Shown here one piece after another: positions 10,871-32,461 of a stretch of DNA of 64,000 bases. Every line of letters starts with the position of its first letter. Within the stretch, counting starts at the first letter, position 1. The stretch comes from an uncultured Schlesneria sp. (GTDB taxonomy: Bacteria > Planctomycetota > Planctomycetia > Planctomycetales > Planctomycetaceae), in the NCBI GenBank assembly GCA_903904835.1, contig CAIVEI010000011.1, positions 1-64,000 of the forward strand. The letters run 5' to 3'. The notes beneath the pieces are model-generated. The model was not told where the DNA came from. It saw nothing but the letters and a program-made list of their open reading frames with translations, and made no database searches. The position numbers and the translations under genes are program-made.

Positions 10871-12571
10871 ATGACTGAAGTCACTCCCGATATGATCGCA
10901 CAAATTGCTACGCGGTTGTTGAACGACGTTCCTCAAACCTCACCGGACGGGATTCCAAATTCTCCTGCGGGGTTCGCGGTTCCTCAACAGCCCTCCTATC
11001 CAGGGGCTTCGAATGTTCCGTCAGGCTATATTCCCTCGTCGTCCGTTGCTTCTCCACACGCTCGAGTGTCGCCGGTTGCCCCTGAGCGGTATGCACCTGC
11101 GATTTTGCCTGCTCCTGCTCATCCAAGCTTCACGCCTGACACACCCATTGGGACACCTCATCACGTGGCGGATGTTTCGCCTGATGGGCTGCGCAGTTTT
11201 GTCGAGCAAATCAGAAATCCGACTCCACAACCAGACTGTGGATTTGGTTTCGGGGCGCCAGGGATTGCGTTCCTCAAACAAATTCTTTCGCCAGCTCAAG
11301 TCCCCACGCCTGTCTTATCCGGTGGTTCCCGACCATTAGACATTCCGTCGATCCGTCGTGATTTTCCGGCATTGAACCAGAGGGTTCACGGAAAGCCATT
11401 GATCTGGTTCGACAACGCCGCGACGACTCAAAAGCCGCAGTCGGTGATCGATTCGATTTCTCATTATTACGCCCACGATAATTCAAACATCCATCGTGCC
11501 GCTCATACGCTGGCCGCTCGCTCGACAGATGCATTCGAGGGGGTTCGAGAAAAGGTTCAGCGATTCCTCGGGGCGGGTTCGACCAAAGAAATTATTTTCG
11601 TGCGAGGAACGACTGAAGGGATCAATTTAGTTGCAAAGACTTACGGTCAAAAGTTCTTGCAACCGGGCGATGAGATCCTGCTGTCGACTCTGGAACATCA
11701 CGCGAATATCGTTCCCTGGCAGATGGTTGCCAAAGAAAAAGGGGCGATTATTCGCGTCATTCCGGTGAATGATCGCGGTGAAGTCATGCTTGAAGAATAT
11801 CAGGCACTTCTCGGACCGAGAACCAAAATCGTGGCATTGACTCAGGCCTCCAACAGCCTTGGCACCATTTTGCCGGTCACGGAAATGACTCATCTGGCGA
11901 AACGCTATGGGGCACGCGTTCTGATTGACGGGGCTCAATCCGTTTCTCACATTCCCGTGAATGTTCAGGACATCGGCTGTGATTTCTTCGTGTTTTCCGG
12001 GCACAAGATTTTTGGCCCGACTGGCATCGGCGTGGTTTACGCACGCGAAGAATTGCAGGAAATCATGCCCCCCTGGCAAGGAGGCGGAAACATGATCAAG
12101 AATGTGACGTTTGAAGAAACAACCTATTCTGATCCCCCCAATAAGTTTGAGGCTGGCACCCCAAATATTGCCGACACCGTGGGGCTTGGTGCCGCCTTGG
12201 ATTACGTCCAAAGTCTCGGACTTCCGAATATTGGCAAGTACGAACATCAACTTTTGGAATACGCAACCGAGCGATTGCGGCCGATCGACGGATTGCGTCT
12301 GATCGGGCAGGCACGCGAAAAAGTCAGTGTGATCTCGTTCGTCTTGAAAGATCGTCGTACGGAAGATGTCGGCAAGCTGTTGGATCTTGAGGGGATCGCA
12401 GTCCGAGCGGGTCACCATTGTTCGCAGCCCTCGCTACGTCGTTATGGTGTCGATGCAACGGTTCGCCCTTCCTTTGCCTTCTACAACACGACGGACGAAA
12501 TCGACCATCTCGTAGCGATGGTCAAACGGATCAGCGTCGGGACGTTGAAAGTGCCTGGCTCGTCCACCTGA
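10871..12571 (+). CDS. SufS-like cysteine desulfurase with N-terminal encapsulation extension
   Basis: Protein of 566 residues with AAAGGCGG upstream. Residues from about 155 onward form a class V aminotransferase-type cysteine desulfurase, which removes sulfur from L-cysteine as an enzyme persulfide. Visible are WFDNAATTQKP, the PLP lysine Lys379 in FSGHKIFGPTG and the catalytic cysteine Cys517 in RAGHHCSQPSLRR (SufS group). The first about 155 residues are a Pro/Ser/Ala-rich, probably disordered extension with three non-proline islands: DMIAQIATRLLNDVP (near residue 7), DGLRSFVEQIRN and PGIAFLKQIL. Encapsulated Family 2 cysteine desulfurases carry such extensions for loading into the shell. 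It lies 54 bases after the second shell gene, so it is almost certainly the native cargo. Confidence 0.92.
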   Translation: MTEVTPDMIAQIATRLLNDVPQTSPDGIPNSPAGFAVPQQPSYPGASNVPSGYIPSSSVASPHARVSPVAPERYAPAILPAPAHPSFTPDTPIGTPHHVADVSPDGLRSFVEQIRNPTPQPDCGFGFGAPGIAFLKQILSPAQVPTPVLSGGSRPLDIPSIRRDFPALNQRVHGKPLIWFDNAATTQKPQSVIDSISHYYAHDNSNIHRAAHTLAARSTDAFEGVREKVQRFLGAGSTKEIIFVRGTTEGINLVAKTYGQKFLQPGDEILLSTLEHHANIVPWQMVAKEKGAIIRVIPVNDRGEVMLEEYQALLGPRTKIVALTQASNSLGTILPVTEMTHLAKRYGARVLIDGAQSVSHIPVNVQDIGCDFFVFSGHKIFGPTGIGVVYAREELQEIMPPWQGGGNMIKNVTFEETTYSDPPNKFEAGTPNIADTVGLGAALDYVQSLGLPNIGKYEHQLLEYATERLRPIDGLRLIGQAREKVSVISFVLKDRRTEDVGKLLDLEGIAVRAGHHCSQPSLRRYGVDATVRPSFAFYNTTDEIDHLVAMVKRISVGTLKVPGSST

Positions 12572-15683: not shown

Positions 15684-18600
15684 ATGTCGACGACTGACCG
15701 AACCGAACGTGTTGCCATTGTCGGCATCGGTGGCATCTTTCCTGGTGCGTCCGACCTGGACACGTTCTGGAAAAACATCGCCAACGGAATCGACTCGGGT
15801 CGCGCCGTCCCACAGGGCCGCTGGTTCCTCAGGCCGGAAACGGCGTTCGATCCTGATGGACCAAAAGCCGATCGAGTCTATTCCACATGGGGCTGCTTTA
15901 TCGAAGGTTTTCAGTTCGATCCGACAGGATTGAATCTGGACCGGAATCTCCTGGAGAAACTCGACCCGCTGTTCCACCTGGGTCTGCATGCGTCTCGCAT
16001 GGCATTTCAGGATGCACGTGGTCTCGGCGGTATCAGTCCGGATCGCGTTGGCGTTATTCTCGGGAATATTGTCCTTCCAACCGAATCGACATCGGCGATG
16101 TGCCGCGACGTGCTGGGACGGACATTCCTGGAACGGATCGTCGAATCGGCTCAGCTCACCTCCGAACGCCGCACTCAATTGATGTCGGAATGTCGTCGCC
16201 ATTTCCCACGTTCGGATTGGCATCCACTGAACCATTATGCGGCCAGTCTTCCGGCGGCGTTGATCGCTGAAGGACTGGGATTGAGAGGACTGGCCTATAC
16301 CTTGGATGCCGCCTGCGCGTCGTCACTTTATGCGTTGAAATTTGCCTGTGAAGAACTGCTGGCTTATGGTGCCGATGCCATGCTGGCAGGAGGGATGTCG
16401 CGACCCGACTGCCAGTACACTCAGATGGGATTCGCGCAGCTCAAGGCCTTGTCGCGACGTGGCCGATGTGCTCCATTGAGTGCCGCCGCTGACGGGCTGG
16501 TAGTTGGCGAAGGAGCAGGAGTTTTCGTTCTTAAGCGATTGACCGATGCCATCAATTCGGGCGACCACATTTACGGAGTGATTGCCGGAATCGGTTTGTC
16601 GAATGATCGAGGTGCGAACCTGTTGGCACCTCATTCTGAAGGCCAGCTTCGTGCGATGCGGTCTGCATACCAGCAGGCAGGCTGGCAACCGAGTGACGTC
16701 GATCTGATCGAATGTCATGCGACAGGGACTCCCGTCGGCGACGGCGTCGAAATTGACAGCCTGCATCAGTTATGGGAACGAGAACAAGCTGTTGCCGGCC
16801 AGTGCGTGATTGGGGGAGTGAAGTCCAACGTCGGTCACCTGCTGACGGGTGCCGGCGCGGCTGGTCTGATGAAGGTGCTGCTGGCAATCAGGAATCAGAC
16901 TCTGCCGCCAACCGCAAATTATGAAAAACCTGCTACGGCGCTGGCTCAACCCGAAAGTCCGTTTCGCGTCCTGCGTCAGGCGGAACCGTGGGGACAACGT
17001 GTTGAGAAATCGGTCACGGACCATGGGACACGATCGGACTTGATTCCTCGTCGTGCCACGATCAATGCTTTTGGATTCGGCGGCATTAACGCGCACGTGT
17101 TGATTGAAGAATTCATTGAAGCAGAGTCACATAAGGACTCACGAAGCGAAAACGGCGGCTTACCGATACGGTTGGAATCCCGACATTCATCACTCCACAA
17201 GCCAAGCCTGAACATTGCCATCGTCGGTCTTGCGGTACAGGTTGGAACGTCATCCTCGGCCATCAATGGGTTGCAACAGCACGGATCAGTAAACGAAAAG
17301 TCTTCGAAGCATGATTGGGGTGTGACACAGACAGAGTGGTATCATGACGAAGTCGGCTCGGCGTTGGAGACCAGCCGATCGTCGAGCGACCCCATTTCGT
17401 CGGTTCATCTGCCGCTTGGCGAATTCCGCATCCCGCCGCTGGAAATGCAGGATATGTTGCCGCAGCAGCAGTTGATGCTGAAGGTTGCTGCTGAAGCATT
17501 GCGTGATGCCCTGCATGCAGACCAGGAACAGACTCTTCGAACGGCAACTGCCGCTTTGGGAAACCGTACTGGCGTGTTCATCGGTATCGAGCTTGATCCG
17601 AATACGACGAACTTTCATCTTCGCTGGTCGATTGAAGAATTGGCACCACAATGGGCTGACGTGCTTGGTCTGGTCCTGAGTCCTGAGGAGATGACTGAAT
17701 GGGTCGCTCAACTGAAGAAATCGGTCGGGCCACCGTTAACAGCCAATCGTGTGATGGGGAACCTGGGTGGCATCGTTGCCAGCCGATTGGCTCGTGAATT
17801 CAATGTCGGTGGTCCCAGCTTCACGATTTCTTCCGGCGAGAATTCTGGTTTACGTGCGTGTGAAATGGCCGCCCACTCACTTCGGCGAGGGGAACTCGAT
17901 CAGGCACTGGTTGGTGCGGTTGACCTGCCGTGCGAAATTCGAAGTCAGTTAGCAGCGTGGGGACTGCCAGCGGGACCGAAAACAGAAAAAACCGTCGATA
18001 GTGCGACGGCGTTTGTGCTGAAGCGTTTCGAAGACGCAATTGCTGACGGTGACCCGATTCATGCTGTCATCACACAGATCGATTCGTCGAATCGAAGCCG
18101 TAACAACCCTGATTCCTCCATCAATGCCGGTGCAGCGACTGGTCTTTTGGAGCTGGCAACCGCCGTGAACTCATTGCGGCACCGCATTCTGCCAGGTTCA
18201 ACTTCTGATCATTGGTTACACAATCGGTCGGATGGAGCAAGGAGACTTCGCGTAACGGGTCGAGGGGTCGACGGGCGAGGGCTCGCTTTTGAACTTGCGG
18301 ATCACCCCGACTCAACCTTCTACCATACTCCAAAATCCAAGGTTCTGGAAACTCTGCGACTGAATGTGGGACTGTTTGTCATCGATGGTGACAGCATCGG
18401 AGAACTCGAATCGGGATTGGAACGGTTGGCGGAGTTGGCTGAGTTGGCTGATTCACGTGAGTCGATCGGACTGCTTGCAAAACGTTGGTTTCGCGAGCGA
18501 CCGCCACGCGAAGAACGGCGATTGGCTGTGTCTCTCGTGATCAAGTCGATCGATGACCTGCCAGAAGTCATTCGCTTGGCGAAGGTTCGCCTCGAGGGAA

Positions 18601-21600
18601 ACTCGGCTGCCGACGGTATTGATCGGCGGATTTTCTTTTCACGTGATCCGCTGGGAAGGACCGGTCGACTGGCCTACGTCTTTCCAGGTTCGGGCAACGC
18701 GTTTCTTGGCATGGGCCGCGAACTGCTTGCGGCGTTTCCCGAGATCCTGCTTCGGCAAGATGCCAAGAACGAACGGTTGAAGGACCAATATCGTCCGGAG
18801 TTAATCTGGTACGGCAAATCGACCACGGAACTATTAGATGATCACAAAGCGATGATCTTTGGCCAGGTTGCCATCGGAACGGCGGTGTGCGATCTGCTGG
18901 CACGCTTCGGTTTCGTCCCTTCCGCCAGTCTTGGATATAGCCTGGGCGAGTCTGCGGCATTATTCGGATTACGAGCTTGGAAAGATCGAGACGAAATGCT
19001 TGGCCGAATGGATGCCGCCACGCTTTTTGGTAGTGATCTGGTCCATCCGTTCAATGCGGCCAGGCGTGCCTGGAGCATTCCTGAAGGGACTGACGTACCG
19101 TGGGTCTCTGGTGTGATCGACCGTTCTGCAGACGAAGTTCGAAAGGCGATAGCTGCGTCAAACACGAACGAGTCCACCGTTGATTCGGTTCGTTCGTCGC
19201 GTGTTTACTTGTTGATCATCAATACACCAAATCAATGCGTCATCGGAGGTGATCGGAGCCAGGTTGAACGGCTGGTCAAGAACTTGTCGGCGACATTCGT
19301 TGCGTTTGCAGCGCCAAGCACGGTTCATTGTGAAGTCCTTCGCCAGGTTGAATCGGCCTATCACGCACTACACGTGATGCGGACGACCGCACCGCGTGTC
19401 GCAGACCCGAATGGTACTTCGATTCAGGCAACGCGACCGATTGCCTTCTATAGTACGGCATGGGGTCGCCCCTACGAGCTGACGCAGGAAAACGCCGCCA
19501 AGGCCATCGTGGCACAAGCGGTCAACACGATCGATTTCCCCCGCCTGATCGAGCAGGCTTACGCCGATGGTGTCAGAATATTTCTTGAGATCGGCCCAGG
19601 TTCATCGTGTAGCCGGATGATTGACGACATTCTCGGCGATCGTCCGCATCTTGCCCGGTCGGCCCTGCCGGCCACGTCGAACCCGATTTCGACGTTCCTC
19701 GAATTGCTGGCAGCGCTGATCGCGGAACGTGTCCCTGCCGACCTGACGTACCTCTACGGCGACGAACACACGCAGCAAAGCCCGTCGACCAAAGTCAGTT
19801 CAAATCGCGAAATCGTGACAGACACGGGCGGGCCACGATTCTCGATTCCGACCCCTCCGCACGGCTGGCGATTTCAATTTAGACCGATCACAAGCAGTCA
19901 TGAATTTGATGAAATTCCCAAGCGGGTTATCGTCGATGATCGCTCATCCCGTCCTTCGATCGACGCGAAGCTTGCTTCGTTAACAAATACAAAACGATTC
20001 ACACCTGAACCTTCTGGACCGAATGTTATGACACAGTTGGACGATCTGCTGGCCGCACGAATGAAGGCACACGAAACGTATCTTCGCGTGTCAGCCGAGG
20101 CGCAGCGGATCATGGCCGATCAACTTGAGTTACTATCGAGACTCGCCGGTGGCGAACCCGTTGAAACGGCGGCTTCATCGAATGAAAACGGAACGCCATC
20201 GCAACAGGCTCGAATTGAATCGGTTGAATCGACTCCCCAGCCGTCGGACACTGTCATCCCTGTTGTTCCGCCCCGATCATTGTCGCGTTCGCAGTGTATG
20301 GAATTTGCGATCGGCAAAATCGGTCGCGTACTGGGGGAAATATTTGCCGAGATTGATCAACATCCCACGCGAGTCAGACTCCCTGACGAACCGTTGATGC
20401 TGGTTGACCGCATTCTTGAAATTGATGGCGAGCCACTTTCCATGACATCCGGACGAGTCGTGACCGAACACGACATTCATCCTGGTGCGTGGTATCTCGA
20501 TTGCAATCGGATTCCGACCTGTATTGCGGTTGAAGCGGGTCAGGCAGACCTGTTCTTGTCGGGATGGCTGGGGATCGATCTTGAAACAAAGGGAATCGCC
20601 AGTTATCGATTGCTGGATGCCGTCGTGACGTTCCACCGCGAATTACCTGGACCGGGCAAGACGATTCATTACGACATTCGAATTAATCACTTCTTCCGCC
20701 AGGGTCAGACTTATCTGTTTCGCTTCGAGTTCGATGCGACGATCAACGGTCAACGACTGTTGACAATGCGGGAAGGATGCGCGGGCTTCTTCACGGAAGC
20801 CGAATTGGCTGGAGGGAAGGGAATTATTCATACGGCGCTGGACCGACAACCACGCCCGGGAAAACGACCAGCCGACTGGACGGAACTGGTTCCGATGGGC
20901 GTCGAGAGTTATGACGATCGACAATTGCTGGCGTTAAGACAGGGGGAGCTTGGTACGTGCTTCGGCCCGGCATTTCAGCGGCTTTCTTTAAAGTGTCCCG
21001 TGACCATCCCGGGTTTGATGAATGATCACGGACCAACATCAGTATCCAGTCAACGGTCGAAGATGTGGTTGATCGATCGTGTACTGAAGCTCGATCCGAG
21101 TGGCGGGAAGTTTGGCTTGGGGATGATCCTGGGTGAATTGGACATTCATCCGAATGACTGGTTCCTGACCTGTCACTTCTGTGACGATCAGGTGATGCCA
21201 GGGACGCTCATGTATGAATGCTGTATGCACACGCTGCGGATCTTCCTGTTGCGCATGGGTTGGGTAGGCGAGTCGGGCCAAACGGCGTATGAGCCGATGC
21301 CGGAAGTTCGCAGTCGGCTGAAGTGTCGCGGCCAGGTTCTCGCCAGTACAAAAAAGGTCTGGTACGAAATTATACTGAAGGAGCTTGGATACACAGAATC
21401 TGAAACCCCTTACTGTCTTGCCGACGCCCTGATGTATGCCGATGGAAAGCCGATTGTCGAGATTACCGATATGTCAGTCCGATTGTCCGGGCTGACACGC
21501 GAGGCGATCGAACGACTGTGGTCGGGACCGTCAACCGCTCGCGGCGTCTCTTCGAGGAAGACACACAGTGTGAATGAGTTCGGTGCGACTCATTCATCGG

Positions 21601-22730
21601 CGTCACGTGAACCGGTCTACGACCGACGTGTGGCTTTGTTTGACACCGATCGCATCACGGCGTACGCCATTGGAAACCCTTCCGATGCGTTTGGCGAACG
21701 ATATCGCGTATTTGATTCGGATCGGATCATTGCGAGACTACCAGGCCCTCCCTTTCAGTTTCTGGATCGGATCGTGGCGATCAGCGGGTGTGAGCAGTGG
21801 GTGTTGAAACCAGGGGGAGAGGTCGTGGCGCAGTACGACGTCCCGCTAGACGCCTGGTACTTTGCATCCAACCGCCAGAAGCGGATGCCGTTTGCGGTCT
21901 TACTTGAGACGGCGCTGCAACCGTGTGGATGGCTGGCCGCGTATGTCGGATCAGCTTTGACCAGCGACATCGATCTGTCGTTCCGCAACCTTGGAGGTAC
22001 TGCAACTCAGTACCGCGACGTCACTGCCACATCGGGAACACTGACAACAACGGTGAAAATGACTCGCGTTTCCACTTCGGGTGGCATGATCATTCAGCAC
22101 TATGACTTTGACCTCAGGTGCAATAACGAACCGGTTTATGTCGGCAACACGTACTTTGGGTTCTTCTCAAAGGCATCGCTGATGAACCAGATCGGCATTC
22201 GCGATGCAAAGCCGTTCGTTCCATCGCCCACTGACGACGAGCGTTGCCTCAACTTTCGTTACATCGACAAACCCCCGTTTGCTGATTCGCAATTCCAGAT
22301 GATCGATGATGTGAAGTTGTCCTTAACGAACGGGCCGTTCGGAAACGGGTTTGTCATCGGAACAACTTCCGTCGACCCGACATCGTGGTTCTTTAAGGCT
22401 CACTTCCACCAGGATCCGGTCGTGCCAGGTTCGCTTGGTCTCGAATCGTTTTTTCAACTGGTAAAGTTCTACGCAGCCCAGCGATGGCGACTCGGCGAAA
22501 ACGCTCAGTTCGCGACACCCATCGTCCACCATCCTGCGGGTCAAATTCACGGGAAGCACGAATGGGTTTATCGAGGCCAGGTGATCCCACGAGACAAGCT
22601 TGTCACTGTCACAGCGGTCATCAAGCAAGTCGATGATGCGACGAAACAATTGACGGCCGAAGGTTTTTTGTCCGTCGATGGACGAATCATTTATCAGATG
22701 AAAGAGTTTTCCGCAGGGATTGAAGCATAG
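15684..22730 (+). CDS. PUFA/polyketide-synthase-like protein: KS - KS0 - AT - four hot-dog dehydratase domains
   Basis: Protein of 2348 residues. Domain 1 (about 5-480) is a complete ketosynthase: active cysteine Cys211 in LDAACASSLY, then CHATGTPVGDG and KSNVGHLLTGAGAAG. Domain 2 (about 509-870) is a second KS fold in which the cysteine position is Glu719 (FTISSGENSGL), like a chain-length factor. Domain 3 (about 995-1340) is an acyltransferase with nucleophile Ser1086 in GYSLGES. After a linker come four FabA-like hot-dog domains starting near 1568, 1792, 2022 and 2202; the second (CHFCDDQVMPG) and fourth (AHFHQDPVVPG) carry the dehydratase HF...D.V.PG motif, the first and third do not, so they form two pseudo-dimers. 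The DH1 stretch IPTCIAVEAGQADLFLSG is characteristic of PUFA synthases. No acyl carrier, ketoreductase or enoylreductase domain is seen, so it must act with partners elsewhere. The product is probably a long or unsaturated acyl chain. Confidence 0.85.
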   Translation: MSTTDRTERVAIVGIGGIFPGASDLDTFWKNIANGIDSGRAVPQGRWFLRPETAFDPDGPKADRVYSTWGCFIEGFQFDPTGLNLDRNLLEKLDPLFHLGLHASRMAFQDARGLGGISPDRVGVILGNIVLPTESTSAMCRDVLGRTFLERIVESAQLTSERRTQLMSECRRHFPRSDWHPLNHYAASLPAALIAEGLGLRGLAYTLDAACASSLYALKFACEELLAYGADAMLAGGMSRPDCQYTQMGFAQLKALSRRGRCAPLSAAADGLVVGEGAGVFVLKRLTDAINSGDHIYGVIAGIGLSNDRGANLLAPHSEGQLRAMRSAYQQAGWQPSDVDLIECHATGTPVGDGVEIDSLHQLWEREQAVAGQCVIGGVKSNVGHLLTGAGAAGLMKVLLAIRNQTLPPTANYEKPATALAQPESPFRVLRQAEPWGQRVEKSVTDHGTRSDLIPRRATINAFGFGGINAHVLIEEFIEAESHKDSRSENGGLPIRLESRHSSLHKPSLNIAIVGLAVQVGTSSSAINGLQQHGSVNEKSSKHDWGVTQTEWYHDEVGSALETSRSSSDPISSVHLPLGEFRIPPLEMQDMLPQQQLMLKVAAEALRDALHADQEQTLRTATAALGNRTGVFIGIELDPNTTNFHLRWSIEELAPQWADVLGLVLSPEEMTEWVAQLKKSVGPPLTANRVMGNLGGIVASRLAREFNVGGPSFTISSGENSGLRACEMAAHSLRRGELDQALVGAVDLPCEIRSQLAAWGLPAGPKTEKTVDSATAFVLKRFEDAIADGDPIHAVITQIDSSNRSRNNPDSSINAGAATGLLELATAVNSLRHRILPGSTSDHWLHNRSDGARRLRVTGRGVDGRGLAFELADHPDSTFYHTPKSKVLETLRLNVGLFVIDGDSIGELESGLERLAELAELADSRESIGLLAKRWFRERPPREERRLAVSLVIKSIDDLPEVIRLAKVRLEGNSAADGIDRRIFFSRDPLGRTGRLAYVFPGSGNAFLGMGRELLAAFPEILLRQDAKNERLKDQYRPELIWYGKSTTELLDDHKAMIFGQVAIGTAVCDLLARFGFVPSASLGYSLGESAALFGLRAWKDRDEMLGRMDAATLFGSDLVHPFNAARRAWSIPEGTDVPWVSGVIDRSADEVRKAIAASNTNESTVDSVRSSRVYLLIINTPNQCVIGGDRSQVERLVKNLSATFVAFAAPSTVHCEVLRQVESAYHALHVMRTTAPRVADPNGTSIQATRPIAFYSTAWGRPYELTQENAAKAIVAQAVNTIDFPRLIEQAYADGVRIFLEIGPGSSCSRMIDDILGDRPHLARSALPATSNPISTFLELLAALIAERVPADLTYLYGDEHTQQSPSTKVSSNREIVTDTGGPRFSIPTPPHGWRFQFRPITSSHEFDEIPKRVIVDDRSSRPSIDAKLASLTNTKRFTPEPSGPNVMTQLDDLLAARMKAHETYLRVSAEAQRIMADQLELLSRLAGGEPVETAASSNENGTPSQQARIESVESTPQPSDTVIPVVPPRSLSRSQCMEFAIGKIGRVLGEIFAEIDQHPTRVRLPDEPLMLVDRILEIDGEPLSMTSGRVVTEHDIHPGAWYLDCNRIPTCIAVEAGQADLFLSGWLGIDLETKGIASYRLLDAVVTFHRELPGPGKTIHYDIRINHFFRQGQTYLFRFEFDATINGQRLLTMREGCAGFFTEAELAGGKGIIHTALDRQPRPGKRPADWTELVPMGVESYDDRQLLALRQGELGTCFGPAFQRLSLKCPVTIPGLMNDHGPTSVSSQRSKMWLIDRVLKLDPSGGKFGLGMILGELDIHPNDWFLTCHFCDDQVMPGTLMYECCMHTLRIFLLRMGWVGESGQTAYEPMPEVRSRLKCRGQVLASTKKVWYEIILKELGYTESETPYCLADALMYADGKPIVEITDMSVRLSGLTREAIERLWSGPSTARGVSSRKTHSVNEFGATHSSASREPVYDRRVALFDTDRITAYAIGNPSDAFGERYRVFDSDRIIARLPGPPFQFLDRIVAISGCEQWVLKPGGEVVAQYDVPLDAWYFASNRQKRMPFAVLLETALQPCGWLAAYVGSALTSDIDLSFRNLGGTATQYRDVTATSGTLTTTVKMTRVSTSGGMIIQHYDFDLRCNNEPVYVGNTYFGFFSKASLMNQIGIRDAKPFVPSPTDDERCLNFRYIDKPPFADSQFQMIDDVKLSLTNGPFGNGFVIGTTSVDPTSWFFKAHFHQDPVVPGSLGLESFFQLVKFYAAQRWRLGENAQFATPIVHHPAGQIHGKHEWVYRGQVIPRDKLVTVTAVIKQVDDATKQLTAEGFLSVDGRIIYQMKEFSAGIEA

Positions 22731-24018: not shown

Positions 24019-25668
24019 ATGGATTGGCTGACGTCGCTTCGAGACCAGTTGCCACTGTTGCTCGTGTTGTCGCCCCTGATCGGGTTTTTCGTGACGCTGG
24101 TTGCGTCGGGATTTGAACCGGGATTGGTACGCACGCTCGCCATTTCCAACGCACTTTGCAGTCTGTGTATCCTTGCTGGGCTTGAGTGGCGGTTTGAGTT
24201 GGATCTTGCAGCAGACGCAGACATTATCCGGCTTGCTGAGCGTGAAATCGCAAAATCCGATACGGAAACTGGTTCGATCAGCGAAGTCCGCCGCACATTG
24301 GATCGACGTCGTGTTGAACGGCTTCGTCATCAATGGTTTGCCGTTGATGGAACAAATTTGTTTCCGGTGTTGCTACTGGTGGTCATGACGATCATCGTGA
24401 TCCAGAGAACCGATTCGTCATCTGACAGCACTCGCTGGTTTATTCCTTTTGTCCTGTTGTTTGAGACCGCGTCGCTGGGTGTCATGACCACTTACGATCT
24501 GCGGGCATACCTGATTTTGACGGCGGCCAGTACTGTCATCATCAGTCATTTGATTGGCCAATGCGGCAACTCAGAACGTCGCGCAAACGCCGAACAATTC
24601 TTGTTGACTCAATATTGCGGGGGTGCGTTTGTTGCGATGGGGTTTGCGATGCTGGTCGTCGCTGTCCCGTGGATGAAAATTCAGGATTCGACGAATCATC
24701 AATCGATTTCATGGAACATCGCCAGTATCACTCTGGAGATCCAGAAATGGGCGACGCGGAACGAATTGGCTTACCATTATGTTTACGAATGTTTCCCGTG
24801 GATGTTGCTCGTGTTATCGGTGGGGTTCGCAATTCAAGCGGGATTGTTTCCGTTTCATTCCACGCAAATCAGTGTGATGAGCAATGCTCAACCTGAGATT
24901 GCCGTACTTTTTCTCGCCGGAACGTTATCCGCCAGTCGCATCGGCTGGCTCAGGTTTGTCATGCCACTGGCTCCTGACCTGATGGTTTCGTTTGATGGCT
25001 GGATGTTGATTCCCTCATTAGGTGGTGCCGTTTGGGGTGCACTTCGTGCGATTGCTCCGGCCGAATCGCGACAACGCACCGCGTACTTCTTTATGAGTAT
25101 TTCCGGTTTCCTGCTGTTGGGCTGCTATTGCTTTACTCGAATCGGAATGAGCGGAGCATGGCTGATGCAACAACAACTGACTGTGATCGTCTGCTCGATC
25201 CTTTTGATGACGGGTGATCGACAAACTTCTTCGGACGACATTGGCCAGCGCGGGGAATCAGCAGATGGAATGAGGTTCAGTACTCGGGGACTGTTGTTGT
25301 TAGCCTGCTTTCCCATCCTTGGATTCTTTGCCAGCAGTTTTCTGATCGTCTCGGAATTGCTAAACGAAAGCCTGCTTCTCGCGGCAACCGTATTTGTCAT
25401 TTCGGCAATGATTTTCATCGTTCTCAAACTGGCGATCGATCAACATGACCGATTGGAAAAAGGGGTCAGTTCAAACGTTAACCGCCAGTGGCGATTTCCG
25501 GTGTGGTATCTGGTGATGCTTTCGCTGATGATCGCGTCAACCGTATTTCCGGGATGGTTGCTCCACCAGTGCGAACCGGAGATTGCCCGCGTTTTCCGTC
25601 GATATGAGCAAACGTCATCTGCAGATTTCGCCGAACCTGCAAAAAAAGACCGGCAATCAGCACCGTAA
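24019..25668 (+). CDS. Divergent NuoM/antiporter-like membrane protein
   Basis: Protein of 549 residues with about 12 hydrophobic segments. It aligns with the proton-conducting NuoM/MrpD family: FETASLGVMTTYDLRAYLIL corresponds to the NuoM helix that ends in the FWE glutamate, FAIQAGLFPFHSTQISVM corresponds to the VKMPMxPxHxWLPDAH loop, and GTLSASRIGWLRFVMPLAP to the next lysine-bearing helix. The residues needed for proton pumping in complex I appear replaced: the Glu by Ala, the first Lys by Gln and the second Lys by Ser/Ala. No other nuo genes are near. It may be a structural or regulatory membrane subunit instead of a pump; its partners are unknown. Confidence 0.65.
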   Translation: MDWLTSLRDQLPLLLVLSPLIGFFVTLVASGFEPGLVRTLAISNALCSLCILAGLEWRFELDLAADADIIRLAEREIAKSDTETGSISEVRRTLDRRRVERLRHQWFAVDGTNLFPVLLLVVMTIIVIQRTDSSSDSTRWFIPFVLLFETASLGVMTTYDLRAYLILTAASTVIISHLIGQCGNSERRANAEQFLLTQYCGGAFVAMGFAMLVVAVPWMKIQDSTNHQSISWNIASITLEIQKWATRNELAYHYVYECFPWMLLVLSVGFAIQAGLFPFHSTQISVMSNAQPEIAVLFLAGTLSASRIGWLRFVMPLAPDLMVSFDGWMLIPSLGGAVWGALRAIAPAESRQRTAYFFMSISGFLLLGCYCFTRIGMSGAWLMQQQLTVIVCSILLMTGDRQTSSDDIGQRGESADGMRFSTRGLLLLACFPILGFFASSFLIVSELLNESLLLAATVFVISAMIFIVLKLAIDQHDRLEKGVSSNVNRQWRFPVWYLVMLSLMIASTVFPGWLLHQCEPEIARVFRRYEQTSSADFAEPAKKDRQSAP

Positions 25669-26733: not shown

Positions 26734-27738
26734 TTATTGATTGCCTACGGACGCTTTCTTCAGTGATTCCGTCAATCGTCGAAGTCCTTCTTCGATAGTG
26801 ATGCGAGGAACATAACCCAGATCACGTCGAGCGGCATCGAGTCGAAACCAGTGGGCTGTCGAAAGCTGGCGGGCGACGAACCGAGTCATTCTCGGTTCGT
26901 CTGTGCGCCCGGTGAGTTTATAGAGCGTCTCGAGCACCCCGCCGACTGTGTAGGCCGCACTGGCTGAAATGCGACGTGTAATCGGTGCAACGTCAGCACA
27001 GGCGAGCAGCCGATTGATGAGATCCCAAAGTGGCTGCGGCTCCCCGTTGGAGATGAAATAGGCTTTGCCTGCCGCGTTTGAGCCCACTTTCAGCCGCTCT
27101 TCTGCCAGCAGGTGCGCCTCGGCCGCGTTATCAATATAAGTAGTATCAACCAGATTCTTGCCATTTCCAACTTGCCGCAACTGGCCCGCCCGAGCTCGTT
27201 GAATCAGCCTTGGAACCAGGTGGTTATCACCCGGCCCCCAAATCAAATGCGGACGAAGTGAGACTGTGGCTAATTGAGGCCCGTTTGCAGACATGACCAT
27301 CCGTTCGGCGATCGCTTTGGTCAGCGGATAATGGGCCAGGTAGCTGGACGGATAGGAAACCGTTTCGTCGATACCGACTTCGTCCGTTCCATTGAAGACA
27401 ACGCTGGGCGAACTCGTATAAATCAGCTTGCCAATCCCGTGCGATTGACATGCGGCAATCACGTTCTGGGTCCCAATGACGTTTGCTTGATGATAGTCAT
27501 CGTAGCGTCCCCAGAATCCTGCCTTCGCAGCGACGTGAAACACAGCCTGACAACCTGTGGCGGCCTGGTGAACGACCCCCGCATCAGCGACGTCTCCTCG
27601 CACACAGTCGACCCCCAACGTCTCAAGCTCCGGGGACGCGCTGCGCTGCAGGCTTCGAACCAAGTCGCCGCGCGCAAGCAGACGTCGAACAATCGCTTGC
27701 CCGAGAAATCCATTACCACCCGTCACTAAAACATGCAT
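26734..27738 (-). CDS. OleD-like NAD(P)-dependent 3-beta-HSD/epimerase-family reductase
   Basis: Protein of 334 residues, an extended short-chain dehydrogenase. The N-terminal Rossmann motif is VTGGNGFLGQ, the catalytic Tyr-x-x-x-Lys is in LAHYPLTKAIAE, and IYTSSPSVVF holds the catalytic serine. The stretches FHVAAKAGFWGRYDDYHQAN and LRPHLIWGPGDNHLVPRLI look specifically like OleD, which reduces 2-alkyl-3-oxoalkanoic acids in bacterial long-chain olefin synthesis. No oleA, oleB or oleC lies in the window. A fatty-acid-synthase-like gene lies about 4 kb away, so a lipid role is reasonable. The two genes are not adjacent, and a sterol or sugar substrate cannot be excluded. Confidence 0.78.
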   Translation of the reverse strand: MHVLVTGGNGFLGQAIVRRLLARGDLVRSLQRSASPELETLGVDCVRGDVADAGVVHQAATGCQAVFHVAAKAGFWGRYDDYHQANVIGTQNVIAACQSHGIGKLIYTSSPSVVFNGTDEVGIDETVSYPSSYLAHYPLTKAIAERMVMSANGPQLATVSLRPHLIWGPGDNHLVPRLIQRARAGQLRQVGNGKNLVDTTYIDNAAEAHLLAEERLKVGSNAAGKAYFISNGEPQPLWDLINRLLACADVAPITRRISASAAYTVGGVLETLYKLTGRTDEPRMTRFVARQLSTAHWFRLDAARRDLGYVPRITIEEGLRRLTESLKKASVGNQ

Positions 27739-28456: not shown

Positions 28457-30082
28457 ATGTTTACGACCGGACATTCGAGCACACGTACAATAGAGAATCA
28501 GTTGGCTGAACAACTCAAACAAACCTGGTTAATGCTTTTTATGGGAGTGACAATTGGATTTGTCGGACTCTATTTCCTTGTGACCCGTCCGACAGCGAAT
28601 GAATTGGCGAAAATGAAAGCCAGCCTGACTTCTGTTGAAGAACGGATGCAAGATCTGGCTGCGACCAGCGACAACGTATGGGAAGCAAACAGTCTGCTGA
28701 CAGGCTTGCGCGCCCAACACGATCAGGTCGCCGACGCACGTGTCGCACTGCAGGCGATTCGCGAACTGAGAACCGAACTGCTCAACGTCGCATCGAAGAA
28801 TGACACCGTGTCGAAAGCCATCGGCGGCGTCGACAAGTTGCAGACACGTATCATTGATCAACAAGCGAAAACAGAAGGGGCGGCCCGAGTTTTCGAGTTG
28901 ATTCAGTCGTTTGAGGATCAAATCGTCGGGCAGCAGGATTCGCATGACAACGCGGTCAATTCACTCGACAAGTTGATTGCCCTCAAGGAAATTGCTGCCT
29001 CGCAGTCACAGGAACTTGAACAAGCTCAGTTAGCTCTGAATCAACTTGTCGAATTGAGCAACGGGTTGCAGAAGCAACTCGAAACCATCGAATCAGCTCG
29101 ATCCAGCTTTGAAGGCCTTGCATCGCTCAAGTCTGGCTTGAATGCCGCCTCAGAAAACCTGAAAGCAGCTCAAACGGTTTCAGACCAACTCGTCGCATTG
29201 CAACGTCGCCTTGCTGACGGCGGACAACAGGCCGAACTCGCGACCGAACGAGCCGAACGATTGATCGGACTCAACGGCAAACTTGTGGCAGGCGAGTTGA
29301 ATCTGGCAACATCGGAAAAGGGTTTGGATCGACTGCTCACGATTCAGGGGAAGCTTGGTAACGAGCAGTTGAACATCGGTGCATCCGAGCAGAACCTTGA
29401 AGGACTTCTCACGATCCAGGGCAAGTTGGCGAACGAGCAATTGAATGTCGCTTCGTCGGATCAAAACCTGGATGGACTGCTGAAAATTCAAGCGAAATTG
29501 ACGGACGAATCGTTGAACATCGCCCGTTCGACAGAGAACCTGGATGGACTTCTCACAATCCAGGACAAGTTGGTGAATGACGACTTGAATGTCGCCGCCT
29601 CAGACGAGAACCTCGATGGATTGCTGACAATTCAAGGGAAGTTGATTGACGACAAACTGAACATCGCCGGTTCAGAACAGAATCTGGACGGATTGCTGAC
29701 GATTCAAACGACCCTCGTCGCTCAAACACGTAACCTGGCCGACGCCATTCAGACATTGGAAGTACTCAGCGGCTTCCGAGAAGAATTGAGTGCACAGATT
29801 CAGTCGCTGGCTGGTGTTCGCCATGATCTTGTGGAACTGAGCCTGATGGAAACGTCATTGGCGAAAGTCGCCCGAATCATGAGGCCGCTGGTCGAACTGG
29901 GAAATATTCGCCGACTCAGTGACGAAGAACTGCGTCATGCCGCCCGCAGCATCCTTGACGGACGCACAGCGACTCGCGTCACCAAAAATAGTGCTGAGAA
30001 TCGCCCGACTGCAATCAGTGGAATCTCGGCCGAAACGTCAGCCGAAGAATACGGCGATGTCCCAATGCCAACCAACGAATGA
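28457..30082 (+). CDS. Membrane-anchored coiled-coil protein with six 24-residue repeats
   Basis: Protein of 541 residues with AGGAGA just before the ATG. A hydrophobic segment at about residues 29-48 (LMLFMGVTIGFVGLYFLV) anchors a long helical region rich in Gln, Leu and Glu. Residues 286-429 (bases 29312-29743) are six consecutive 24-residue repeats of the form SEQNLDGLLTIQGKL followed by a variable xDxxLNIAx segment; a partial seventh unit precedes them. The hydrophobic spacing suggests amphipathic helices. The C-terminus is polar. A strong terminator follows at 30110. It may be an envelope spacer or chemoreceptor-like scaffold; function unknown. Confidence 0.72.
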   Translation: MFTTGHSSTRTIENQLAEQLKQTWLMLFMGVTIGFVGLYFLVTRPTANELAKMKASLTSVEERMQDLAATSDNVWEANSLLTGLRAQHDQVADARVALQAIRELRTELLNVASKNDTVSKAIGGVDKLQTRIIDQQAKTEGAARVFELIQSFEDQIVGQQDSHDNAVNSLDKLIALKEIAASQSQELEQAQLALNQLVELSNGLQKQLETIESARSSFEGLASLKSGLNAASENLKAAQTVSDQLVALQRRLADGGQQAELATERAERLIGLNGKLVAGELNLATSEKGLDRLLTIQGKLGNEQLNIGASEQNLEGLLTIQGKLANEQLNVASSDQNLDGLLKIQAKLTDESLNIARSTENLDGLLTIQDKLVNDDLNVAASDENLDGLLTIQGKLIDDKLNIAGSEQNLDGLLTIQTTLVAQTRNLADAIQTLEVLSGFREELSAQIQSLAGVRHDLVELSLMETSLAKVARIMRPLVELGNIRRLSDEELRHAARSILDGRTATRVTKNSAENRPTAISGISAETSAEEYGDVPMPTNE

Positions 30083-30109
30083 TCTGACGAGCGAAATCTC
30101 GAAATGAAC

Positions 30110-30147
30110 AACAACCGGGATGCGATGAGAATCGCGTCCCGGTTGTT
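30110..30147 (+). terminator. Intrinsic terminator of the coiled-coil gene
   Basis: Arms 30110-30126 and 30131-30147 pair over 17 bases with one G-T mismatch and a 4-base loop, followed by TCGTTATC. It lies 28 bases after the coiled-coil gene stop. It overlaps the earliest possible start (30104) of the next frame, which argues for the later start used below. Confidence 0.75.
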
Positions 30148-30214
30148 TCGTTATCGCCAGAGCGTACAATTTATCGAACTATTGAATCGATGCGTTTTTC
30201 CAAGGCAATCTACG

Positions 30215-32461
30215 ATGCGACGAGTGCGAACGGGTGGTGGTTGGCCAGCAGTGCGTTACACCTTCAGCAAGGCGCGAGAAGCGGGTGGGTTGTGGAAACT
30301 TTGGAAGGCCATGCGTTCAAAAAACGCCTGCAAGACATGTGCTCTGGGAATGGGAGGCCAACAAGGTGGGATGGCCAACGAACGGGGTGTCTTTCCCGAG
30401 GTTTGCAAGAAATCGCTGCAAGCGATGGTGTCAGATATGCAAGGGGCCGTAACACCCGACTTCTTTAAAACCTACTCGATCCCGCAACTTCAGGCATTCT
30501 CACCACGGGAACTCGAAAACAGCGGTCGACTCACTCAACCCGTCATTCATCGAAAAGGTGAGAACTACTATCAGCCGATCTCGTGGGACGATGCGTTCAA
30601 AAAAATCATCACGAAACTGACTCCCGCCTCGTCAGACGGTGCCACATTCGATTCGTCGCATCAGGCGAAGCCGAACGAAACTTTCTGGTATTTCAGTGGT
30701 CGCAGTTCCAACGAAGCGGGATTCCTGTTGCAGGTCTTCGCCCGCGTCTTCGGAACCAATAACGTCAACAACTGCTCGTTCTATTGTCACCAGGCGAGCG
30801 GTGTCGGACTCGGCAGCGTCCTGGGGACAGGGACAGCCACACTGGTGCTCGAAGATGTCGAACATGCGGACCTTGTTTTCATCATCGGTGGAAACCCGGC
30901 CAGTAATCATCCCCGCCTGATGTCGACACTGAAAAACCTCCGCCGAAAAGGGGGGCACGTTGTCGTGATCAACCCGATTGTTGAAACCGGGTTGGTCACA
31001 TTCAGCGTACCGAGTGATCCCATCAGTCTGTTGTTCGGAACCAAGATCGCATCGTTATACGTTCAGCCGCATATCGGAGGTGACCTGGCTCTGCTGACAG
31101 GGATCGCCAAGCGGATCGTGGAAATGAACGCCCATGACGTGCATTACCTGGAAACCTACTGCGATCATTGGCCAGAGCTGAAGGCGCAACTCGCCAGCAT
31201 CGACTGGAACGAGATCTACCGCAAATCGGGTGTCGATGCCGAAGCCATTCAGGCGATCGCCACGCGGTATGCGAGTGCCGAAAACGTCGTCTTCACCTGG
31301 ACCATGGGAATCACCCACCATACGTACGGTGTCGAAAACGTCGAAGCGATCGCGAATCTCGCTCTTCTGCGGGGCATGGTTGGACGACCCAACGCTGGGC
31401 TGTTGCCGATTCGAGGTCATTCCAACGTCCAGGGAATCGGTTCAATGGGTGTCACTCCGCAATTGAAAGAGGCGATCTTTGAACGATTGCAAACGAACTT
31501 TGGACTGAAGCTTCCGACAACAGCCGGGCTGGATACGCTCGCCTGCATGGAGGCGGCCAGTCGAAAAGAATTGAAATTCGGCTTCTGTCTCGGTGGAAAC
31601 CTGTATGGTTCGAACCCTGATTCCACATTTGCGGAAAAGGCGCTCGGGGAGCTGGATCTGCTTGTTCATCTCAACACCACGCTGAATACAGGCCATGCCC
31701 ACGGATTGGCCAAAGAGACGCTCATTCTGCCTGTGCTGGCCCGCGATGAAGAGCCTCAGGCGACGACTCAGGAATCGATGTTCAACTACATCCGCTTAAG
31801 TGATGGCGGGCCATCAAGGCACGTCGGGCCAAAAAGCGAAATCGAAGTCATCGCGACAATCGCCAGTGGCGTGCTGGGTAACAAGGGACCAATCGATTGG
31901 GAATCGATGCGAAACACCAATCGAATTCGCGAAGCAATTGCCAAGGTGGTTCCAGGTTTCGAAAAGATCAAAGACATCGGCGCGACGAAGAAAGAGTTTC
32001 AACTGGATGGTCGAACGTTTCATACGCCGGAATTTCCCACGAAGAACGGCAAAGCCCAGTTGCGAATCCATGATCTTCCGGAACTTGTTGGTGGTCCAAA
32101 CGAACTGCGTATGATGACGATTCGAAGTGAAGGTCAGTTCAATACAGTCGTGTATGAGGACTACGATCTCTATCGAGGAATTGAAGGCCGATTTGTCATC
32201 CTGATCCATCCTGACGATCTTGTACGCTTCCGTCTGCTACCGGGCCAAAAGGTGACCGTTCGCAGCGGGACGGGTGAAATGAAAAACATCGCCGCGACAC
32301 CGTTCGAAAAAATCCGACCCGGAAACGCGGCGATGTATTATCCCGAATGCAATGTGCTTGTCCCTCGATTCGTCGACCCCAGATCCCGCACACCGGGTTT
32401 TAAGTTGGTCCTGATCACGATCGAAGCAGAAAAGGCTTCCAGACTGCCGGTACTGCGATAA
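30215..32461 (+). CDS. YdeP/FdhF-like molybdopterin oxidoreductase
   Basis: Protein of 748 residues. The start at 30215 (MRRVRTGGGWPAVRY) has AAGG nine bases upstream and matches the family N-terminus; a longer frame begins inside a terminator hairpin. It belongs to the DMSO-reductase superfamily branch containing E. coli YdeP and related formate-dehydrogenase-like proteins. Visible are RSKNACKTCALGMGGQQGGM, the likely molybdenum ligand cysteine in FYCHQASGVG, the pterin-binding FIIGGNPASNHPRL and a C-terminal molydopterin-binding beta barrel (VILIHPDDLVRFRLLPGQKV). Only a CxxC is seen at the N-terminus, so an iron-sulfur cluster is uncertain. The substrate is unknown; YdeP has been linked to acid resistance. 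No maturation genes are adjacent. Confidence 0.85.
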   Translation: MRRVRTGGGWPAVRYTFSKAREAGGLWKLWKAMRSKNACKTCALGMGGQQGGMANERGVFPEVCKKSLQAMVSDMQGAVTPDFFKTYSIPQLQAFSPRELENSGRLTQPVIHRKGENYYQPISWDDAFKKIITKLTPASSDGATFDSSHQAKPNETFWYFSGRSSNEAGFLLQVFARVFGTNNVNNCSFYCHQASGVGLGSVLGTGTATLVLEDVEHADLVFIIGGNPASNHPRLMSTLKNLRRKGGHVVVINPIVETGLVTFSVPSDPISLLFGTKIASLYVQPHIGGDLALLTGIAKRIVEMNAHDVHYLETYCDHWPELKAQLASIDWNEIYRKSGVDAEAIQAIATRYASAENVVFTWTMGITHHTYGVENVEAIANLALLRGMVGRPNAGLLPIRGHSNVQGIGSMGVTPQLKEAIFERLQTNFGLKLPTTAGLDTLACMEAASRKELKFGFCLGGNLYGSNPDSTFAEKALGELDLLVHLNTTLNTGHAHGLAKETLILPVLARDEEPQATTQESMFNYIRLSDGGPSRHVGPKSEIEVIATIASGVLGNKGPIDWESMRNTNRIREAIAKVVPGFEKIKDIGATKKEFQLDGRTFHTPEFPTKNGKAQLRIHDLPELVGGPNELRMMTIRSEGQFNTVVYEDYDLYRGIEGRFVILIHPDDLVRFRLLPGQKVTVRSGTGEMKNIAATPFEKIRPGNAAMYYPECNVLVPRFVDPRSRTPGFKLVLITIEAEKASRLPVLR

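Follow-up and report, generated by a model that had tools for sequence, protein, structure and literature searches.

A PfaBC protein of an uncultured Schlesneria as a probable subunit of a scattered Pfa synthase for polyunsaturated hydrocarbon formation

The large gene described here lies in a 64,000-nucleotide stretch of DNA (the window) from an uncultured Schlesneria of the family Planctomycetaceae. On its sequence, the encoded protein is a genuine PfaBC of known kind, in which PfaB and PfaC are fused. With a probability that we put at roughly 0.85, it serves as one subunit of a Pfa synthase whose genes are scattered over the genome, and feeds polyunsaturated chains to OleA for the formation of a hydrocarbon. 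The apparent lack of partners is a consequence of this dispersal. An earlier sequence-only reading of the window had suggested an unusual membrane lipid or a hydrocarbon precursor, made with trans-acting partners; the partners are indeed encoded apart and a hydrocarbon precursor is the best-supported product, but the partners are dedicated PfaA and PfaD homologues.

The gene is a single open frame of 2348 amino acids, and its domains are listed in Table 1. Searches with Pfam matched the N- and C-terminal KS domains (239.7 and 124.4 bits), an AT, weakly (46.6 bits), and FabA in four stretches (253.7 bits). The AT region scored 64 bits against the NCBIfam PfaB-family model, under the cut-off of 144.3, and its top match in the PDB is PfaB (PDB code: 9ry8; E 3.1e-21). 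For the KS-KS0 part (residues 8–754), phmmer returned 6riw_A (ORF10) as the second of the PDB matches listed; this entry is the KS-CLF didomain of Moritella marina, according to the excerpt of PMC9138089. The order proposed in the sequence-only reading (KS, second KS, AT and four hot-dogs) is borne out by Pfam and by the residue survey below. The same applies to its claim that ACP, KR and ER are absent from the protein itself, as none of these families was matched in Pfam at E ≤ 1 and no ACP serine motif was seen.

Table 1. Position of the PfaBC-type gene, its domains and the nearby OleD-like gene in the window
Feature	Position	Strand	Evidence and remarks
pfaBC-type gene	15684..22730	+	KS-CLF-AT-pseudoDH-DH-pseudoDH-DH; open frame, Pfam, NCBIfam, alignment with relatives
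Ketosynthase 1	15705..16925	+	Catalytic C211, H345 and H385 present
Second KS, chain-length-factor-like	17211..18293 (limits approximate)	+	KS match at 17400-17942; E719 at the position matched by eye to the KS Cys
PfaB-type acyltransferase	18663..19745	+	GYSLG (S1086), H1215; without the Gln/Arg pair of malonyl-specific MAT
Linker, poorly conserved	19776..20246	+	One long helix predicted; ACP/KR not found
Hot-dog 1, pseudo-DH	20379..20765	+	Without catalytic His
Hot-dog 2, FabA-like DH	21054..21464	+	H1831 and E1845
Hot-dog 3, pseudo-DH	21738..22139	+	Without catalytic His
Hot-dog 4, FabA-like DH	22287..22700	+	H2240 and E2254
oleD-like gene (2-alkyl-3-oxoalkanoate reductase)	26734..27738	-	NF042422 461.5 bits, below the cut-off of 580

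Catalytic residues were surveyed in 78 near-complete PfaBC sequences, the window protein included; 7 of 85 frames, shorter than 2000 residues, were left out. The KS1 cysteine (Cys211) is kept in 76 of the 78 with two gaps, and the histidines at 345 and 385 in 77 each, with one gap apiece. Column 719 of the second KS, which was matched to the KS cysteine position by eye, holds Glu in 65 sequences, Asp in 6, Gly in 3, Gln in 2, Ser in 1 and His in 1, and Cys in none. The AT serine (Ser1086) is found in 77/78 and His1215 in 78/78. In the hot-dog domains, His1831 and His2240 are present in every sequence, while the matching columns of hot-dogs 1 and 3 (1608 and 2063) have histidine in 0/78. The hallmarks of bacterial PfaB, as given in the excerpted text of PMC12895367, are GYSxG and the absence of the malonyl-binding Gln/Arg pair; the window AT has Ile1058 and Ala1111, and the equivalent offsets in the PfaA MAT of the same genome are occupied by Gln and Arg. 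Across the survey these marks are not universal, with Tyr at 1085 in 64 and Arg at 1111 in 10 of the 78 sequences. The window protein itself shows an active KS followed by a CLF that lacks the cysteine, a PfaB-type AT with GYSxG and without the Gln/Arg pair, and two FabA-like DHs, each with a His-less pseudo-DH ahead of it.

The hot-dog pair had been read as doubled to four, which does not hold up: the portion of PMC4882568 consulted describes four contiguous hot-dogs in PfaC, each DH being preceded by a His-less pseudo-DH, and the same histidine pattern is seen here. Doubled hot-dogs as a novelty are ruled out by this published pattern together with the histidine survey, and four hot-dogs without an ACP cease to be an oddity.

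The linker between the AT and the first hot-dog was inspected separately, as the sequence-only reading had singled out an ACP or KR at residues 1340–1560 as decisive; neither was found. Residues from about 1361 to 1520 are the least conserved of the protein (0.15–0.37 per block of 40), and structure prediction gave low confidence throughout the linker, one helix at about 1448–1488 excepted. A simple pattern search of the linker found no ACP serine motif. Neither Pfam, conservation, the serine-motif pattern nor the structure prediction revealed a hidden ACP or KR, and this possibility was rejected. The model of the whole protein has a mean pLDDT of 81.5 and a pTM of 0.50; local confidence is high in the four hot-dog regions, with their placement relative to each other less sure. 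The top PDB matches from Foldseek, in a list for the whole model and not for each hot-dog, are FAS DH and FabA chains.

The source genome (8.18 Mb in 211 contigs) was searched for ACP, KR and PfaD, as had been proposed in the earlier reading, and they were found on contig C33, where pfaD is followed by a PfaA of composition KS-MAT-ACPx4-KR-PS-DH. This PfaA passes TIGR02813 (1666 bits, cut-off 1010) and the PfaD passes TIGR02814 (628 bits, cut-off 449); the PfaA ACPs carry four LGIDSI motifs. An Sfp/HetI-like PPTase is encoded on C155, with 184 bits against a HetI cut-off of 370 and hence below it. The genome thus encodes a PfaA with tandem ACPs and KR, a PfaD-type ER and a putative PPTase. The absence of ACP, KR and ER is true of the protein but not of the system, since PfaA and PfaD sit on C33. 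None of pfaD, ACP or PPTase was found adjoining pfaBC among the window neighbours scanned, in agreement with the earlier remark that no pfaD or PPTase gene is adjacent. The pfaBC gene starts 15.7 kb inside the 108.7-kb contig C11, and on C33 a further 35 kb follow pfaA on its 3' side and 5.1 kb lie beyond pfaD; in linked relatives pfaBC sits on the 3' side of pfaA. Given 15.7 kb and 35 kb of flanking DNA, contig ends do not account for the separation between C11 and C33.

Candidates for all four Ole enzymes were identified by homology to the cluster-borne Ole proteins of relatives. An OleD-like gene, missed in the sequence-only reading, lies 4 kb from pfaBC and is the sole ole gene near it in this genome (Table 1); the runner-up OleD match in the genome scores 77.8 bits. 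The encoded protein matches at 64% the OleD of an intact BC-A-B-C-D cluster, and the same arrangement of pfaBC and oleD, with the intervening genes conserved, is seen in L068 and L069. The OleA on C175 is above the NF006720 cut-off and matches at 81% the OleA of genome G040, which sits directly behind pfaBC. The OleC candidate on C69 matches that of G040 at 61% and scores 698 bits against the olefin beta-lactone synthetase cut-off of 900. The OleB candidate on C190 is an alpha/beta hydrolase that matches the OleB of L105 at 69%; in NCBIfam it hits haloalkane-dehalogenase models only, below their cut-offs.

Several further genes were noted in passing. Around oleD lie a NuoM-like protein (24019-25668, +; TIGR01972 103 bits, below cut-off, with no Pfam match at E ≤ 0.01), a 541-amino acid protein without a Pfam family (28457-30082, +) and a molybdopterin-oxidoreductase-like protein (30104-32461, +), all conserved in both L068 and L069. 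A cysteine desulfurase is encoded at 10871-12571 (+), its best NCBIfam match being family 2A encapsulin cargo (783.8 bits, cut-off 800). On contig C128 of the source genome, at about 91–144 kb, several long open frames (up to 3049 amino acids) were hit weakly and repeatedly by the OleC query, which probably picks up the adenylation domains of an NRPS-type cluster.

The distribution of the genes was examined in a panel of 118 genomes of the class, with pfaD and OleA called at E ≤ 1e-60. PfaD was detected in 50 genomes and OleA in 48. OleA is present in 47 of the 50 genomes with pfaD and in 1 of the remaining 68 (Fisher p 4e-28, kinship ignored); the exceptions at this threshold are G004, G010 and G116, which have pfaD and no OleA match, and G047, which has OleA and no pfaD. 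Among the matches listed, pfaBC occurs in at least 48 of the 118 genomes, a second divergent copy in G027 being left aside from this count, and none is seen in the pfaD-bearing G010 and G116. Outside the window's family, at least 43 genomes have both pfaBC and pfaD among the matches listed, and wherever the two share a contig they are at most 12.3 kb apart (32/32). The other 11 of the 43 have the genes on different contigs and were counted as neither split nor linked, because these are draft assemblies of 30 to 690 contigs.

Within Planctomycetaceae, 5 of the 30 panel genomes carry pfaD, pfaBC and OleA; in the other 25, matches to pfaD and to OleA are both absent at E ≤ 1e-60. In all five genomes with both genes, pfaBC is apart from pfaD, among the matches listed. 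The two are 3.6, 3.7 and 3.8 Mb apart on one contig in G060, G080 and G099, respectively; should these contigs be closed circles, the distances in the opposite direction would be 1.6, 1.7 and 3.5 Mb. In the source genome and G040 the two genes are on separate contigs. In four of the five, oleA follows pfaBC after 51–156 bp, the exception being the source genome, and in G040 pfaBC, oleA, oleB, oleC and oleD stand in a row.

A scan of genome contigs gave a sample of 79 loci, to which the following counts apply. All seven genes (pfaD, pfaA, pfaBC, oleA, oleB, oleC and oleD) are together in 29 of the 79 loci listed. At least 5 kb of DNA upstream of pfaBC is available in 53 of them; PfaA is absent from that position in all eight such loci of the window's clade, and is present in 37 and absent in 8 of the other 45 listed (L078, L082, L097, L100, L103, L114, L125 and L140). 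Unlinked pfaBC genes occur outside the window's family as well. Among these loci, L125 (Candidatus Anammoxibacter) and L119 (Candidatus Brocadiia) hold pfaBC relatives; a separate PfaA and an OleA match are both missing from the locus DNA, there being little DNA upstream in L119. These relatives are possibly of interest for the unusual lipids of anammox bacteria. Two further loci with pfa and ole genes, L073 and L102, come from MAGs labelled Klebsiella pneumoniae and Bordetella parapertussis; they group with Gamma- and Betaproteobacteria and are probably misnamed bins. In G060 and G080, a gene resembling type III PKS is located 1.4 kb upstream of pfaD (L056:14206-15351 and L057:13991-15136, both on the minus strand); no other of the loci compared shows one at E ≤ 1e-10. 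Its homologue in the source genome is unlinked, on C72. Genes of this type occur in 76 of the 118 class genomes, 41 of the 50 with pfaD and 35 of the 68 without, and the type III PKS was dropped as a candidate partner of the pathway.

Aligned with seven relatives (eight sequences in all), the window protein is 50–60% identical to them. Its nearest relatives among the loci listed are from Schlesneria MAGs, with 91% over 2117 columns to L068, and the full-length pfaBC is 88–91% identical to two such relatives. A PfaBC tree, from which the 7 of 85 frames below 2000 residues were likewise omitted, groups the 14 sequences of the family in one clade with 100% support, in a FastTree-only analysis that carries long-branch and composition warnings. 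The sister group of seven rows includes Gemmataceae, Isosphaeraceae and one unclassified planctomycete; PfaA is beside pfaBC in six of the seven, and the seventh, L101, has too little upstream DNA. The simplest reading of the tree and gene order would be a single break-up of the cluster on the stem of the family, followed by more scattering towards Schlesneria.

How the scattered subunits would work together, in which order and to which product, can be outlined from their homologues. The growing chain would be carried on the ACPs of PfaA, with condensation by the KS-CLF pair of PfaBC; its two pseudo-DH/DH units would take care of dehydration, isomerisation and placement of cis double bonds, and PfaD would act as the enoyl reductase. 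In the excerpt of PMC12895367, the MAT of PfaA loads malonyl groups and PfaB-type ATs handle long chains; the AT of PfaBC may accordingly be the one for terminal acyl transfer of the finished chain. OleA would then join two chains, and OleB, OleC and OleD would convert the product to a long, polyunsaturated 31:9-type hydrocarbon. Precedent for these steps is given in the part of PMC6463001 consulted, where OleA draws chains from the Pfa ACPs to give a 31:8 ketone and, with OleBCD, a 31:9 hydrocarbon; the 31:8 ketone was obtained in E. coli with Pfa and OleA.

The same synthase could instead make a polyunsaturated fatty acid (EPA- or ARA-like) for membrane phospholipids and no hydrocarbon. The fused pfaBC order is shared with the Type D makers of ARA and EPA (PMC3098273 and PMC4882568, in excerpt), and in the source genome oleD alone is near pfaBC and OleA is unlinked. 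Against this, OleA is found in all five family panel genomes with pfaBC (matches listed), candidates for the four Ole enzymes are all encoded, and many relatives keep pfa and ole genes together, so that a phospholipid product appears unlikely. The dispersed gene order, together with the 25 of 30 family genomes that lack pfaD and OleA matches at E ≤ 1e-60, might also be taken to mean that the pathway is being lost in the family and that pfaBC is a decaying remnant of a broken cluster. We consider this highly improbable given the intact catalytic residues, the full-length frame with its close Schlesneria relatives, and the retention of pfaBC and OleA in every family genome with pfaD (matches listed). 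In principle, the protein could also be a new stand-alone synthase, making an unusual lipid with unrelated partners recruited in trans. This would agree with the lack of ACP, KR, ER and PPTase genes adjoining pfaBC among the window neighbours scanned, but is hardly credible: it is largely refuted by the dedicated PfaA and PfaD homologues in the genome, and the close linkage of pfaD in the 32 one-contig genomes outside the family (matches listed) speaks against it as well.

A more speculative variant, which we regard as quite unlikely, is that the ancestral pfaD-pfaA-pfaBC-oleABCD cassette was split yet stayed complete because PfaA-PfaD is a switchable core, which would make polyunsaturated chains for OleA when combined with PfaBC and a different chain without it. 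On that view, the Type J arrangement discussed below would be half of a complete synthase, under its own regulation. For the preferred reading, a scattered Pfa synthase supplying OleA, the practical consequence is that inspection of gene neighbourhoods alone misses the pathway in this family, because its parts are far apart. Planctomycetes with a lone pfaD-pfaA pair may hide a distant pfaBC and polyunsaturated hydrocarbons.

The architecture of the window protein is already known. Fusions of the form [KS-CLF-AT-DH2] are described in the excerpt of PMC3098273 for Types C and D, and pfaBC fusions also for Types H and I; the sequence-only reading was right in calling the protein PfaC-like, with an AT that is of PfaB type, and the combination is not new. 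In systems of marine Gammaproteobacteria (Type A/B), PfaC and PfaB share with it the KS-CLF and the GYSxG acyltransferase (PMC4882568 and PMC12895367, in excerpt) and the two DHs, each with a His-less pseudo-DH ahead (PMC4882568, likewise), whereas PfaB and PfaC are separate there and in the window protein they are fused, with the AT between CLF and DHs. Myxobacterial Pfa3 (Aetherobacter and Minicystis; PMC8436480) likewise combines KS, CLF, AT and FabA-like DH in one protein, but has an AGPAT domain. No ending of this type was found in the window protein, in which Pfam gave no AGPAT match and the C-terminus comes right after hot-dog 4.

The closest resemblance is to the Type I secondary lipid synthase, reported from Deltaproteobacteria and Gemmata, with olefin synthesis suggested as the process it supplies (Shulse & Allen 2011, PMC3098273, in excerpt); the same source gives C31H46 as a product of Geobacter bemidjiensis. 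As in Geobacter and Gemmata, a fused pfaBC is present with pfaA, pfaD and ole genes in the genome, and alignments of the window protein to Geobacter and Gemmataceae loci span almost the whole of it, with about 43–49% in the best segment. In contrast to Type I, pfaBC in the window's family is away from pfaD-pfaA (5/5 genomes, matches listed), and OleA, OleB and OleC are also apart in the source genome. As its pfaBC (C11) is not clustered with pfaD-pfaA (C33), the system is filed here as a split relative of Type I. Type J, described as pfaD with a pfaA of [KS-MAT-ACP3-KR] in Planctomyces limnophilus only and as 'apparently partial' (PMC3098273, in excerpt), resembles it in that pfaD and then PfaA stand alone. 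The same pair, with three ACPs, is found in G080, putatively Planctopirus limnophila. In contrast to the partial system described, G080 has, at a separate locus far away, a complete pfaBC together with oleA, and for this reason Type J is better read as a probable split form of the same pathway than as a partial one. This view of Type J was not met in the literature searched, including the excerpted text of PMC3098273. The pfaBC architecture and the four-hot-dog pattern were known; new, in a small way, are the scattering of the genes in this family and the reinterpretation of Type J.
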